Assembly (NCBI GenBank): GCA_019635635.1
Contig: JAHBZB010000002.1
Coordinates: 1-64,000, forward strand
Reading direction: 5' to 3'
DNA length: 64,000 nt
From: Xanthobacteraceae bacterium
GTDB taxonomy: Bacteria > Pseudomonadota > Alphaproteobacteria > Rhizobiales > Xanthobacteraceae
Made by a program: the position numbers and the translations under genes. Numbering within the stretch: position 1 is the first letter of the stretch; each line of letters starts with the position of its first letter. The notes beneath the pieces are model-generated. The model ran no database searches. It saw only the letters and a program-made list of their open reading frames with translations, and was not told the DNA's origin. Of this stretch, positions 26,230 to 31,303 are shown piece by piece.

Positions 26230-27612
26230 ATGAACCGCACTGTTCTGATCGACAACTCCACGCTAAGCGGCGTTCAACGCTTAACAGGCGAAGCGCAGAC
26301 GCTTAACCTGAACAACATCGATAACGACATTCTTTGTCTGGAGAAGTTGGTAACGGCAATTCTCTTTAGTGATCGCGTTATCAGTGTCGATGATTACAAA
26401 GAGAAATATCGCTCTGAGAGACTGAAACGGTTTGGGTTCGTCGATTTCATTAAACTAGATACCGAAACCGCGACGGTTCTTTCTAAGAACGCGGCAGACT
26501 TCGCCAGTAGCATGGTGTTCGAGTTCGATGGCTCTAAACCTGCCGGCGATGTCGTAAATTTCTTTGAGGCGTTGCGAATTGATCCGCAGCTTCGTTGGGA
26601 TGTCTTCGTCTCCAGCGAATATCTCACTTTGACATTGCTTGTCCAAGATACGAAGGCCACGCAACACGAGCTGGCGATTGATAGTGTTTTCAGGCACGAA
26701 AGCGCCGATGCAGGGGCAGTCACTAACCCACAAGAAATGGCCCATCCGGTCTCAGTTGAAGGCCGGTCCGACATTTCTGATATAAAAGACCTTGTCCAAG
26801 CATTTCGATCTGGCAATTCACAGTATCGCGGACCTGGACATAAAAGTCTGCTGCAGAGAATAGTATTTGGGTATGGATGGGCGGCCGAGAGATCGCATTT
26901 CTACAATGCTGTTGCGGCCATTCACAATGCGGATGCCTATTTGGCTCCGTTGCGTGATGCGTTTTGCGAAAGTTGCTGTAGAATTGAATCGCGCTCTCAA
27001 GTGAACAACTTACTCGAGAGGCTTAAATCGCACTCGCAAGAGACTTTGTCGAAAATCGTCGAAGCAGGTGGCGGAGCGAGATTTGCAGTAAAGCTGCCTT
27101 TCTTCACGGCCTATTTGATTTCACAGTGCGACAACCCTGCACAGTGCATCGAGAAGGCGCTCGAACTGCGTAGTAGCAAAGACTTTAAGGGTTGCCGGAC
27201 AGTTCTATACAACCTCGAAAATGCTAAGCAGCAAGACAAACACAAAGAGATCAATCAAATACTTGGCTACCTTGAACAGTCAGCTGATGCACTGATGAAA
27301 ACGTATGCTGTCACCACCGATGGTGGCAAGCAGTTTTCGCTGTCTTTGGGCCTGACAGGACCGAGCATCGGCACCAGCTTTAAGCTGAGCAATTTGTTCT
27401 CGTCATATGAAAATAAGCCGTTCACCAGGGTCTTCAGAAACATCGCCCAAGATATGCTCAATGTAGAGAAGTTGGGCGGGTTGCACGAAAAACTGTGCTC
27501 GACCATACGAGAGCACAAGAAGGCGACGTATCCGCAAATTGCGGTGACACCGAAATTCATGGAGGACAAGGAGAACGAGTACGGTCGTCCCGCGGAATTA
27601 AGAACTGAGTGA
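26230..27612 (+). CDS. orphan hypothetical protein (460 aa)
   Basis: 460 residues, soluble, no signal peptide or membrane helix. It begins MNRTVLIDNSTLSGVQRL; the short hydrophobic strand with an Asp could be the start of a Rossmann-like or PIN-like domain, but this is weak. The middle (about 190-320) is helical with a Cys cluster (CESCCR), and the C-terminal third is rich in Lys/Ser. GGAAGG lies 7 nt before the ATG, itself 15 nt behind the displaced uvrA end. Base composition is visibly more AT-rich than flanking core genes, which suggests recent acquisition. Function unknown; cargo of an integrated element is possible. Confidence 0.75.
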   Translation: MNRTVLIDNSTLSGVQRLTGEAQTLNLNNIDNDILCLEKLVTAILFSDRVISVDDYKEKYRSERLKRFGFVDFIKLDTETATVLSKNAADFASSMVFEFDGSKPAGDVVNFFEALRIDPQLRWDVFVSSEYLTLTLLVQDTKATQHELAIDSVFRHESADAGAVTNPQEMAHPVSVEGRSDISDIKDLVQAFRSGNSQYRGPGHKSLLQRIVFGYGWAAERSHFYNAVAAIHNADAYLAPLRDAFCESCCRIESRSQVNNLLERLKSHSQETLSKIVEAGGGARFAVKLPFFTAYLISQCDNPAQCIEKALELRSSKDFKGCRTVLYNLENAKQQDKHKEINQILGYLEQSADALMKTYAVTTDGGKQFSLSLGLTGPSIGTSFKLSNLFSSYENKPFTRVFRNIAQDMLNVEKLGGLHEKLCSTIREHKKATYPQIAVTPKFMEDKENEYGRPAELRTE

Positions 27613-28281
27613 TTTTTCGCGGGGATAAATATTCTTCTGCGTCCTCAATTATCCTTTTCGCACAACCACTTCCCCTCACCCTCCAAAAAACTTATCCCCG
27701 CCCCTCCACGCGCGCTTAGAGTCGGCCTCGTCTCGGCCCACGGTTTTTACCGGGACAAGTCGGGGTAACCCGACTGGTCTTTAGGGGCGCGTCGCGCGGC
27801 GTGTTCGATGTCGCGGGTCGGGAGCGGTGGCTGTATCGCGGGGCGTAACGCACCCCGAATACGGCGGCTGAAGTCGCATGGTTCCGGCGCGCCTGCCGCG
27901 CGTCACAAGGGCCTTGCTTGGCTGCTTCGTTGGGAACGTGTGCCAACGCAAGTACGGCGAAGCAGACTAGGCCCGCCAGCGGAGGATAACTTGGTCAGTC
28001 CTCCGGGGATCATGCGAAGGAAAGCCGAAGCCCCACCGCGTGCGGGACGCCGGTTGTTTCTCCGGCTTTCGCGGTGACGACAATTCATCTGTGCCTTCTC
28101 CAACTCGCACAGATGGCCGTGGAGGACGGAAATCCTCCGGCGTCCCCGCCGCCCTTAACAGGCGGCGATTGCAAACCCCGGCTTCAACGGAAGCGCGGAA
28201 ATGTTTTCGCGCGCCAAAACGCATTCTCCCCGCCAACTTGCGTTGGCGGGGAGAAAGATCAGGCTCGAATATTTATTTCCG
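27613..28281. other. 669-bp non-coding region with dense hairpins
   Basis: Overlapping short frames occur on both strands but none has a ribosome site or protein-like composition. An inverted repeat GCGGGGATAA (27619-27628) / TTATCCCCGC (27692-27701) follows the 460-aa gene. From 27741 to 28255 there are at least eight perfect or near-perfect hairpins, listed in the separate entry. No T run marks a simple terminator. Confidence 0.7.
27741..28255. ncRNA. candidate structured RNA or palindromic repeat element (unrecognised)
   Basis: Hairpins in order: CGGT/ACCG (27741-27752); AGTCGGG-GTAA-CCCGACT (27758-27775); CGGGGCG-TAA-CG-CCCCG (27839-27857); CGGAGGA/TCCTCCG (27980-28005); CACCGCG/CGCGGTG (28034-28076) enclosing GCCGG/CCGGC (28049-28066); CATCTGTGC/GCACAGATG (28086-28115); GGAGGA/TCCTCC (28121-28138); GCCGCC/GGCGGC (28148-28166); and a 14-bp stem TTCTCCCCGCCAAC/GTTGGCGGGGAGAA with a 4-nt loop (28224-28255). 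So many stems in 0.5 kb suggests a folded RNA or a mosaic of palindromic repeats. Transcription direction is not decided. Confidence 0.45.
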
Positions 28282-29382
28282 TCAGTCGGTGACGAGGAAC
28301 GTGCTGTTGCCCGCGACCGGCAGCAGCGGCAGGTTCTTGTTGCCGGTGACGCTCGGGTTCGCGGCATTCCCGCCGAAGTAGAACGTCAGGCCGACGGAGG
28401 CGCTGAACTGCTCATGACCGGAGCCGAGCGGACCCGCCGGCGTGTGCGGCGAAACATAATTGATGGTCGAGAATACCGACCAGTAATTGTTGAGCGGCGC
28501 TTCCGCGTTCAGGCCATATTGCATCTTGCCGATGTCCTGCCCGCTGAGACGGCCGACATAGGCGGTCACCAAAGCGCCGAACGCAAAGTTGTGCTTCACG
28601 TAGAAGTTCAGCTGGTCCATCGCGTGGATCGTCGAGAGAACGCCCGGCGCGCCGGCAACGGTGATTGCCGCCCGATCGGTGTCGAGCGCATGCGTGCCCC
28701 ACAGGCCGATCTCGGTCGATCTCGTCAGCGCGACGCCGACGGTGCCGCGAAGCTGGCTCAGACTGATGTCGTTGGCGTTCGCGTTGATGCCCCATTGCTT
28801 GGCCTGGAAGACGTCATACACGAGGCCGACGCTGAGGCGGTCGCCGTTGTCGATGTCGCCCTTCTTGTAGAGGCCGGCCGTGAAGAACGTGTGCTTTTCC
28901 TTGTCCGTGAAATTCGGCGTGAGCCCGAGGCGGCCCTTGAAGTCGTAGACGCCATGGCTTGCGCCGATCTGCACGCGGACCGGGAAGTCGCCGAAGCCGA
29001 AGGCGGTGTTGAAGCCGCCGGTGACGCCAAAGCTGTCGGTGAGCGCGCCGGTGCCGCCGTTGATGTTGGTCAGCCGTTCGCCGATCGACTTGTAAATATC
29101 GCCGCTGACAAAGATGTAAGTGTTGTAGAGCGGATTGTCCGGCAGCGCCGGCGCGGCCGCGAGGGCCTTTACCGGACCGTGAGACCTTGGCGATGCCGTC
29201 CGCGCCGGTGTCGGCGACTGCGATACGCCGAACAGCTTCTGCTGGTCGGCCGGAGTGATTTTATACTTCTTGACCAGCGCCTGCTGTTCCGGGCTCAGCG
29301 ACGATTGCGCGCTCGCACCCGTGAACGAAAACATCAGCGAACACGCAGCGAGCGCCGCGGCTCCAAAAGCGAATTTTTTCAT
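28282..29382 (-). CDS. outer-membrane beta-barrel-like protein with signal peptide
   Basis: 366 residues from the ATG at 29382 (GGTGGGGG upstream); the longer frame to 29592 lacks a ribosome site and starts with non-protein-like sequence. The signal peptide is cleaved near TGASAQSS (about residue 26). After a Pro/Ala-rich linker the sequence alternates aromatic and polar residues in many short strands (YIFVSGDIYKSIG, VQIGASHGVYDFKG, FTAGLYKKGDID, QFSASVGLTFYFGG), as in porin-like barrels. Family not recognised. The hairpin at 28224-28255 lies just behind its stop and might end its transcript. Confidence 0.75.
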   Translation of the reverse strand: MKKFAFGAAALAACSLMFSFTGASAQSSLSPEQQALVKKYKITPADQQKLFGVSQSPTPARTASPRSHGPVKALAAAPALPDNPLYNTYIFVSGDIYKSIGERLTNINGGTGALTDSFGVTGGFNTAFGFGDFPVRVQIGASHGVYDFKGRLGLTPNFTDKEKHTFFTAGLYKKGDIDNGDRLSVGLVYDVFQAKQWGINANANDISLSQLRGTVGVALTRSTEIGLWGTHALDTDRAAITVAGAPGVLSTIHAMDQLNFYVKHNFAFGALVTAYVGRLSGQDIGKMQYGLNAEAPLNNYWSVFSTINYVSPHTPAGPLGSGHEQFSASVGLTFYFGGNAANPSVTGNKNLPLLPVAGNSTFLVTD

Positions 29383-29563
29383 TAAAAAGCCCCCACCGTA
29401 TGGGAGCAACTTATGCTTATTCGGCCCGTCGGTACATCGGGAGGGGCCGTATAGACCCCTAATTTCCGGGTCTAAATTACTCTTCCCGTGAATGTTGCGC
29501 ATCTGCAACAGTCTGGCCGCCCGAAAGCGCGGTCCGCGGGGATGCGCGAGCCCACAATCAACC

Positions 29564-31303
29564 TCAAGACCCCCGCCGCTTGCGCTCCGCATCGTCCCAC
29601 GCGGTGAGCGCCTGATAGTCCGGCACGAACCCGAGGCCCTTCTGCGCGTCCGACGAGATCACGGTCTGCGAGGTCACGACATCGACCAGCGCAGGCGCAT
29701 TCCTCAGCGCGCGCTCGATCGCGGGCTTCAGCTCTTCCGGCTTGGTCACGCGTTCGCCGTAGAGCCCCAACGCCTTCGCCATACCGGCGTAATCGGAATG
29801 ACGCAGCGTGGTACCCACGACGCGGCCGCCGTAATTCATCTCCTGGTCGAGCCGTTCGATATTCCAGGCGGCGTTGTTCGAGACGATGAAGACGCATTTC
29901 GCGCCGTGGCGCACGGCGGTGTCGATCTCCATGGCGTTGATGCCGAAGGCGCCGTCGCCGTTCACGGAAATCACTTGCCGCTCCGGCTCGGCAAGGGCCG
30001 CTGCGACCGCGAACGGCACGCCGACGCCAAGACAACCGAAGGCGCCCGCGTCCATGTAGGTCCGCGCCTGCAAGCCGGTGCGCGCGAACGAAAGCAGATC
30101 GCCGCCATCGGCGATCGCGATGTAATCGGGGTCGGCCAGATCGGCGAGCGCATCGAAGATCGCTTGCGGATGCACCTTGCCGTCGTCGCCTGTCTGCGGC
30201 CCCTTGTTGGCCTTCGCCCTGGCAACCCGGTCCTTATGCTTCCGGCGCAACCCATCGGCCCATTGTTTGTCGATAGAAGATTCCCGATTGCCCGCGGCGT
30301 CGCACATCGCTTTCAGCGCCAGCGGCACGCTGGCCAGAATTTCAGGCTGGCCGCGGCGGTTGTCTATCAGCTCGCCCGGCGCATCCGATAAGCGAATAAA
30401 CTTCGCGTGCGGGAAAACAGCCGGCGAGCCATAGCCGGTCTGATAGTCGAGCTTGCGGCCGATCAGCAGCACGACATCGGCGTCCGTCATTGCTTGTGCG
30501 CGCACGGCGGCGGCGGTTGACGGATGATCGGCGGGTACGAGGCCCCGGCTCTCCTGCGTGTCGAGATAGAGCGCGCCGGTCGCATCCAACAGCCGCACCA
30601 GCTCCTTGTCCGCGCCGCGCGCGCCTCGTCCGGTGAAGACCAGAGGACGCTTCGCACCCCAGAGCGCATCGACCGCCTGCTTGATGGCATCAGGGTCCGG
30701 CAGCATCACGCGCGGCGCTTTCGGCGCCATCCATTCATCGAGCACGAGCTGCTTCGGCACGGAAGTCCGCAGCACATCGGTCGGAATTTCGAGATAAACC
30801 GGGCCCGGCTCGCCGCTGTCGCCGATTGCGCGCGCTATACCCTCGTCGAATTCACGGATCACCTGATCGGCAACCCGCAGCGTGCGCGCGGTGCGGCACA
30901 CCGGCTTCAGCAGATCGACATGCGGAATGTCCTGCAACGGTCCCATGTTTGCCTGCGGGCGAGAGGTGCAGCCGCCAATCAGCAAAACCGGAATGCGCGC
31001 CAGATGCGCGTTGCACATTGCGGTCACGGTGTTGGTAACGCCCGGCCCCGCAGTGACCATCGCGACGCCGAAGCCGCCAGTGAGTTCGGCATGCGCATGC
31101 GCCATATGGACGGCAGCGCCCTCGTCGCGCACGTCGATGATGCGGATGCCTTGCTTCGCCACATGATCCCAGATCGGCTGGATATGGCCGCCTTGCAGTC
31201 CGAAGATCCGGTCGACGCCGCGGCTTTTAAGGAAGCGCGCAATCCATGCGGCACAGGAGTTTTCGTCTGCATTCAGATCGAGCGCCGGCGTTTTGTTGTT
31301 CAT
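29564..31303 (-). CDS. thiamine diphosphate-dependent enzyme (acetolactate synthase-like / 2-hydroxyacyl-CoA lyase-like)
   Basis: 579 residues with the three-domain ThDP fold. The N-terminal Pyr domain carries the catalytic Glu in [16 protein letters not shown] (about residue 63); the PP domain has the ThDP/Mg motif [16 protein letters not shown] ending in NNAAWN. It would cleave or form a C-C bond next to a carbonyl. It is not the biosynthetic IlvB, since no small subunit is adjacent. The gene lies 10 bp behind an acyl-CoA synthetase gene, so a CoA-thioester substrate (oxalyl-CoA or 2-hydroxyacyl-CoA) is a reasonable inference. Confidence 0.85.

Follow-up and report, generated by a model that had tools for sequence, protein, structure and literature searches.

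The window analysed here is a 64,000-nt stretch of a Xanthobacteraceae genome (GCA_019635635.1), in which a hairpin-rich segment lies between a 460-aa open reading frame (ORF) without a Pfam match (26230-27612, + strand) and a DUF6666 gene (28282-29592, - strand). The original prediction described the segment, at 27741-28255, as non-coding DNA packed with perfect hairpins, and took it for a large structured RNA or a cluster of palindromic repeats linked to the adjacent insertion. The stems that it named are indeed present in the sequence: the arms 27754-27764/27769-27779 around AGTCGGG-GTAA-CCCGACT, the pair CATCTGTGC/GCACAGATG, and the 14-bp stem 28224-28237/28242-28255; TCCTCCGG does form the right arm of two of the stems. 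The segment folds with a minimum free energy of -282.5 kcal/mol, against -224.4 +/- 6.1 in 100 dinucleotide shuffles (z = -9.6), none of which folded as well. Its non-coding nature is borne out too, since three overlapping ORFs of 89-113 aa have no Pfam match at E <= 0.01 and no frame is open throughout 29 homologues, in which the longest open stretch is 27-159 codons per copy and frame. The hairpins had been placed correctly by the original prediction, but its limits cut through a unit that begins further upstream; the AGTCGGG hairpin belongs to an insert of about 36-38 nt, and the palindrome at 28224-28255 lies outside the conserved RNA.

On the + strand, the whole unit of the window copy extends over ~27,690-28,200, with the promoter region starting near 27,690 and the structured RNA at approximately 27729..28200, its ends being set from an alignment of homologous copies. 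The RNA consists of a core (27781-28152, the portion within that alignment), a 5' lead and a 3' hairpin. Upstream lies a 5' block (27619..27701, + strand) with the arms GCGGGGATAAATATT (27619-27633) and AAAACTTATCCCCGC (27687-27701), 87% complementary, which may serve as an upstream promoter element; an A-run and a TTATCCCC-like stretch occur upstream of many copies in the genus of the window. A putative promoter, TATCCC-18-TAGAGT (27693..27722, +), is weak, with 6/12 consensus letters; once corrected for the insert at 27742-27779, however, it matches the position of TTGAC(A/T)-16 to 18-TATATT in other copies, and transcription of the window copy would start near 27,729. The insert itself (27742..27779, +) is the palindromic one that carries AGTCGGG-GTAA-CCCGACT, and it is missing from the same-site copy L009. 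Downstream of it on the same strand follow a 5' hairpin (27787..27814, helix 1 of the alignment), with changes on both sides in 6/7 pairs, and a conserved multi-branched core (27823..28042), which scores 217.9 bits against a covariance model that includes the window copy itself. A long 3' arm is closed by GGGACGCCGG (28044-28053, +) and CCGGCGTCCC (28137-28146), with nested covarying helices inside. The 3' hairpin CCCCGGCTTC-AAC-GGAAGCGCGG (28176..28198, +; approximate ends) is the window version of the terminal hairpin of the genus. The 3' end common to the copies consists of a hairpin, then a CGCGAGAA-like stretch and often GCTGTTTGA. Beyond it, the perfect 14-bp palindrome with a 4-nt loop (28224..28255, strand unassigned) sits between the RNA and the convergent DUF6666 gene, and is perhaps a terminator of that gene or of both transcripts.

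To assess the fold, 29 near-complete copies from 7 genomes of the genus of the window were aligned (alignment A1), omitting L028 and L016 for their divergence, L008 because it coincides with L005, L015 and L017-L019 as weak matches, and, as incomplete copies, L031, L033, L034, L037, L038, L039 and L042. RNAalifold predicts 93 pairs in A1, in 15 helices, and itself counts 46 pairs with both sides changed; in the analysis with controls, 95.7% of the cells in the 93 pairs were paired and double-sided changes fell in 47 pairs (241 cells). None of 500 shuffles reached the observed level on any of five measures, and pairing dropped to 37.7-47.1% when the partners were slid by 1-3 columns. A lack of compensatory changes, which would have refuted the original prediction, was not what the alignment showed. 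A wider alignment (A3; 46 copies from many genera) gave 93.1% pairing with 49/63 pairs doubly changed, although A3 was fitted to the covariance model and so leans toward the model structure. As to the strand, 348 G-U cells stand against 28 A-C cells, although the program that picked this structure allows G-U pairs, and the consensus folding energy is -289.5 on the + strand versus -236.6 on the - strand, with -173.2 +/- 6.1 in 60 column shuffles. Covariation and the better folding of the + strand together indicate that selection most likely acts on an RNA transcribed from the + strand of the window.

The RNA so defined is GC-rich and ~360-480 nt long, with a multi-branched domain as its core. 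Many copies carry palindromic insert modules in variable loops, and the window copy has one in its lead as well; modules of the form GGCGCGAATGG...CCAAGCGCGC, sometimes nested, were seen in variable loops of L005, L007, L012-L014, L021, L023, L026 and others. Of the two descriptions that the original prediction offered, the large structured RNA thus gains the support of covariation, strand preference and the positioned promoter-like sites described below; a cluster of palindromic repeats is a true description of the small inserts in variable loops only.

The tip of the 3' arm is a feature of its own. In the window copy, CATCTGTGC (28086-28094, +) and GCACAGATG (28107-28115) flank a G-free loop of 12 nt, CTTCTCCAACTC (28095-28106). 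Across the genus the tip is a 9-bp covarying stem with a loop of 9-13 nt, the composition of which is 62% T, 30% C, 6% A and 1% G (298 nt from 27/29 copies, leaving out two with long inserts there), whereas the whole RNA contains 35% G. In other genera the stem sequence is altered; wherever the arm can be recognised there, its loop mostly contains little G. A pyrimidine loop as a rule for the whole family holds only in part: among distant copies, 12/35 automatic picks by a simple search were another or a doubtful hairpin, and the corresponding loops in G163, a genome of another genus, contain 1-5 G.

Several copies appear to have promoters of their own. Directly ahead of the RNA, the genomes G063 and G167 have a sigma70-like promoter such as TTGACT-17-TATATT. 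Of 60 copies scanned, all from genomes other than G163, 20 have sigma70-like boxes with at least 9/12 consensus letters before the RNA, compared with 0/59 upstream and 1/58 downstream control windows (p = 9e-10, treating the copies as independent, which they are not fully). The remaining 40 copies score below 9/12; 19 of the 20 strong sites fall within 10 nt of one position. The promoter regions may evolve apart from the RNA that follows them. Among the five copies of G063, mean identity is 96.3% in the bodies, 56.9% in the promoter regions and 41.1% in the downstream flanks; as each diverged promoter is correctly spaced, old loci with homogenised bodies seem a simpler account than recent jumps. 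One G063 pair shares its promoter too (97.8%), which indicates that recent copying of the whole unit also occurs. The G063 copies have a common 3' end and no evident target duplications.

How widespread is the RNA? A DNA search found 7 copies in the 3.37-Mb genome of the window, the other six matching the window copy in pieces at 74-86% identity, and the covariance model R1 (26 copies, 218 positions, excluding L012, L014 and L040 beyond the A1 exclusions) recovers the same 7 places. Among 61 genomes covered by the DNA search, 7/8 of the window's genus contain copies, the exception being G005, which is 72% complete; outside the genus the DNA search gave merely matches of 39-60 nt in 5/53 genomes. 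R1 matches 68/198 sampled genomes of the family, in 23/47 sampled genera. G163 belongs to genus g24, in which genome size is mostly 7-10 Mb. With a query from G163, 114/117 sampled genomes of g24 match when 5 candidates per genome are scored, and G163 itself (7.3 Mb) holds at least 40 copies, counted with 40 of 93 candidates scored, which are mostly full-length and 78-89% identical to the query copy. A scan by sequence pattern found matches in Pseudolabrys sp., Bosea sp., Ancylobacter gelatini, A. moscoviensis, A. koreensis and A. mangrovi, as well as in metagenome bins assigned to Xanthobacteraceae, Hyphomicrobiales, Rhizobiales and Pseudomonadota; in Ancylobacter mostly one copy was detected per genome. 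Outside the family the RNA is sporadic. R1 matches 7 of 297 genomes of the order, 3 of them outside the family, and a wider model, R2, which leaves out 7/44 loci with long inserts, matches 22/397, of which 17 are within the family of the window and 5 outside, one of these (G350) weakly at a contig end. In the class, R2 matches 3/385 genomes, the one outside the order having 5% contamination. Surveys of more than 40 genomes used stricter filters, so that weak matches were lost. Neither of two different queries matched any of 50,697 phage and 72,556 plasmid records, and a single pattern, suited to Ancylobacter and the genus of the window though not to G163, gave no match in viral contigs. Several G007 contigs end within near-identical copies of the L003 type (L101-L104), so further copies are probably hidden in that assembly. 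With one to at least 40 copies per genome among related bacteria, this is probably a real RNA gene family.

The sites occupied by the RNA combine long retention with turnover. In the window genome (G000) and in G001, G002 and G004, it has uvrA on one side and a 2-hydroxyacyl-CoA lyase gene on the other; in G007 it is near uvrA, and the opposite side was not found. The 460-aa ORF and the DUF6666 gene of the window were not found in the uvrA-site stretches of four relatives; the RNA occupies this site in relatives where neither was found beside it, and the proposed link to the adjacent insertion is not supported. The same-site copies of G000 and G002 are about 95% identical (95.6% in a second comparison), with flanking DNA at 93% (uvrA) and 87% (lyase gene). 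For many copies in the window's genus, the closest relative is the one at the same site in another species, and mean identity between copies within one genome is 73%, which together suggest that many paralogues are old. A second site, L003, adjoins groES-groEL and is filled in G000, G003 and G007 but empty in G002, where both flanks aligned; the element is also absent from stretches of G001 and G006 in which one flank aligns. Inspection of the empty G002 site by eye recognised no terminal inverted repeats or target duplication of the kind expected of a MITE or insertion sequence derivative, in flanks diverged enough that such marks may have escaped notice. In genus g23, the RNA occupies the hisS-hisZ spacer of five genomes (L065, L066, L067, L071 and L079), three of them Ancylobacter, and lies at other places in further genomes. 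Within the spacer, three copies are forward and two inverted while the flanks stay collinear, which makes a cis element of the flanking genes unlikely.

We also compared the neighbouring genes, clustering all-against-all 291 ORFs of at least 90 codons that lie within about 1.5-2 kb of the copies and passed a third-position GC filter. Among the 25 largest clusters, no protein was found in more than five loci, those five being one shared site, and the others covered 2-4 loci. In G163, of the large-genome genus, 30/40 copies are oriented away from dnaA, which lies at position 1 (p = 0.002, with the terminus assumed at half length), and palindromic repeats of several unrelated families occur within 120 nt after 25/30 copies (L160-L189), compared with 3/30 control positions upstream and 2/30 further downstream. 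In 23 cases the repeat lies 12-28 nt past the 3' end of the RNA, in one orientation, and two further copies precede another repeat type that an ill-fitting motif had missed. Hairpins were not enriched downstream of 25 copies from the window's genus (p = 0.77), and an enrichment after 28 copies from other genera was weak (p = 0.049). Two G163 copies (L086 and L091) have ~1.8 kb in common at 94% identity, of which ~1.3 kb is an insertion within the 5' portion of the unit. High-copy scattering, which the original prediction would have read as the mark of a repeat element, is real in this genus, with at least 40 copies in G163, alongside the evidence for a structured RNA; the two descriptions apply to the element together.

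Comparison with known RNAs produced no family to which these copies could be assigned. The 4227 models of Rfam 15 gave no match within the copies at the gathering threshold (window and 18 loci), and a permissive scan (window and 8 loci) gave weak matches far below threshold or elsewhere in the loci. Group I and group II introns were dismissed as candidates, no Rfam intron model having matched. HEARO, the IscB-associated omega RNA, is likewise a structured RNA of a few hundred nt that is possibly mobile. The copies scanned had no Rfam HEARO match, and the clustering of the 291 flanking ORFs revealed no recurrent neighbour, although a rare one could be missed. Closer in kind are OLE, GOLLD and ROOL, and the 'Soda Lake RNA'/smtA motif (PMC11109978): these too are large, complex folds with covariation whose job is unknown or open. 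Unlike all of them, the RNA described here occurs in 1 to at least 40 dispersed copies per genome, belongs to a different lineage and has no Rfam match.

In Bradyrhizobium, Hahn et al. 2016 (PMC5082802) describe Br-REP1 and Br-REP2, palindromes of 20-40 nt at 50-200 sites. They resemble our copies in being dispersed palindromic repeats, with an RNA-seq signal in the case of the Br-REPs, probably in the same lineage, but in G163 palindromes of that kind follow the 3' end of the RNA and are not inside it. The unit as a whole was therefore rejected as a Br-REP1/2, being ~460 nt in G163 and not a palindrome of 20-40 nt, with the REP-type palindromes beyond its 3' end in 25/30 copies. The same paper remarks, giving no data, that Br-REP2 is surrounded by a larger repetitive element in several genera of this lineage, and describes the small RNAs BjsR5, BjsR6, BjsR7 and BjsR10, with 2-4 imperfect copies and several mapped start sites. 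By their description these share the multicopy habit with our RNA, but are listed there as conserved in Bradyrhizobium only. A 'Rhizobiales-1' motif is listed without an Rfam number in PMC2864571. No published description of the RNA was recognised among titles and the openings of abstracts. The RNA is in no Rfam family and apparently undescribed, and an earlier notice in print is possible.

Taken together, we consider the segment to be a single locus within a multicopy family of RNA genes, apparently undescribed so far, that is maintained by the host and acts in trans, with a probability of roughly 80%. The strongest alternative is a selfish mobile element that would spread, as DNA or by way of its RNA, with the help of a trans-acting transposase or reverse transcriptase, its fold serving mobility and not the host. 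Such an element would account for copies scattered in unrelated flanks, at least 40 of them in G163, for the empty groES-groEL site in G002 and the coming and going of copies, for the G007 contigs that end inside near-identical copies, for the sporadic presence in other families, for the two orientations at one site in g23, and for the two G063 copies that are alike in body and promoter. Retention at shared sites and promoters that diverged before their homogenised bodies fit it poorly, however, as do the positioned promoter-like sites. By eye, moreover, neither terminal inverted repeats nor a target duplication were recognised at the one empty site, between diverged flanks; no neighbouring protein cluster recurs in more than five loci, although a rare partner could be missed; and phage and plasmid records and, with one pattern, viral contigs gave no matches. 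With shared-site retention, positioned promoters and no recurrent partner or extrachromosomal copies weighing against it, we regard a selfish element as rather unlikely, though a serious competitor.

Two further readings are far less probable. A cruciform or palindromic element of chromosome structure, acting as DNA in the manner of REP or BIME sequences with the RNA irrelevant, would suit the palindromic inserts in the loops, the orientation of the G163 copies away from dnaA and the REP-type palindromes that follow most of the 30 examined there; yet the asymmetry between G-U and A-C cells, the better folding of the + strand, the positioned promoter-like sites and the window's genus, where downstream hairpins are not enriched, make it improbable. 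Least probable of all is a cis-regulatory element or riboswitch of the neighbouring genes. It would agree with the intergenic location and the complex fold, but the neighbours differ among copies, the orientation flips between hisS and hisZ, and the + strand RNA of the window copy faces a convergent gene; the riboswitch was rejected as a candidate, no constant position or orientation before one class of genes having been found.

For the preferred reading, a trans-acting RNA gene family kept by its host, the following picture may be drawn. The loci would be independent transcription units with sigma70-type promoters of their own, as the sequence ahead of the RNA suggests. Their predicted product, modelled as a GC-rich RNA of ~360-480 nt, would have a multi-branched core and a long 3' arm tipped by a G-poor single-stranded loop. 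Selection would maintain this RNA, with shared sites persisting for long and the copies becoming homogenised in some genomes, while RNA gene copies may now and then duplicate or move and exchange sequence. Transcribed and acting in trans, it may be a structural or protein-binding RNA, and we would guess that the G-poor loop docks a single-strand RNA-binding protein, perhaps Hfq, a cold-shock protein, Rho or S1; the level of the RNA may be set by gene dosage.

More tentatively, and with somewhat less than even confidence, we propose that these genes represent a novel class of large structural RNA in the service of the host, amplified by one bacterial family to at least 40 genes per genome, with concerted evolution of the bodies like that of rRNA genes and separate evolution of the promoters, in which an RNA-binding protein docked to the G-poor loop would give an abundant ribonucleoprotein. 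As kin of the large orphan structured RNAs, it is set apart from them by its copy number and by the way it evolves. There are few large structured RNAs whose job is still to be found, and every new class is a direct path to new function; the present one also prompts us to ask by what means RNA genes at dispersed sites become homogenised.
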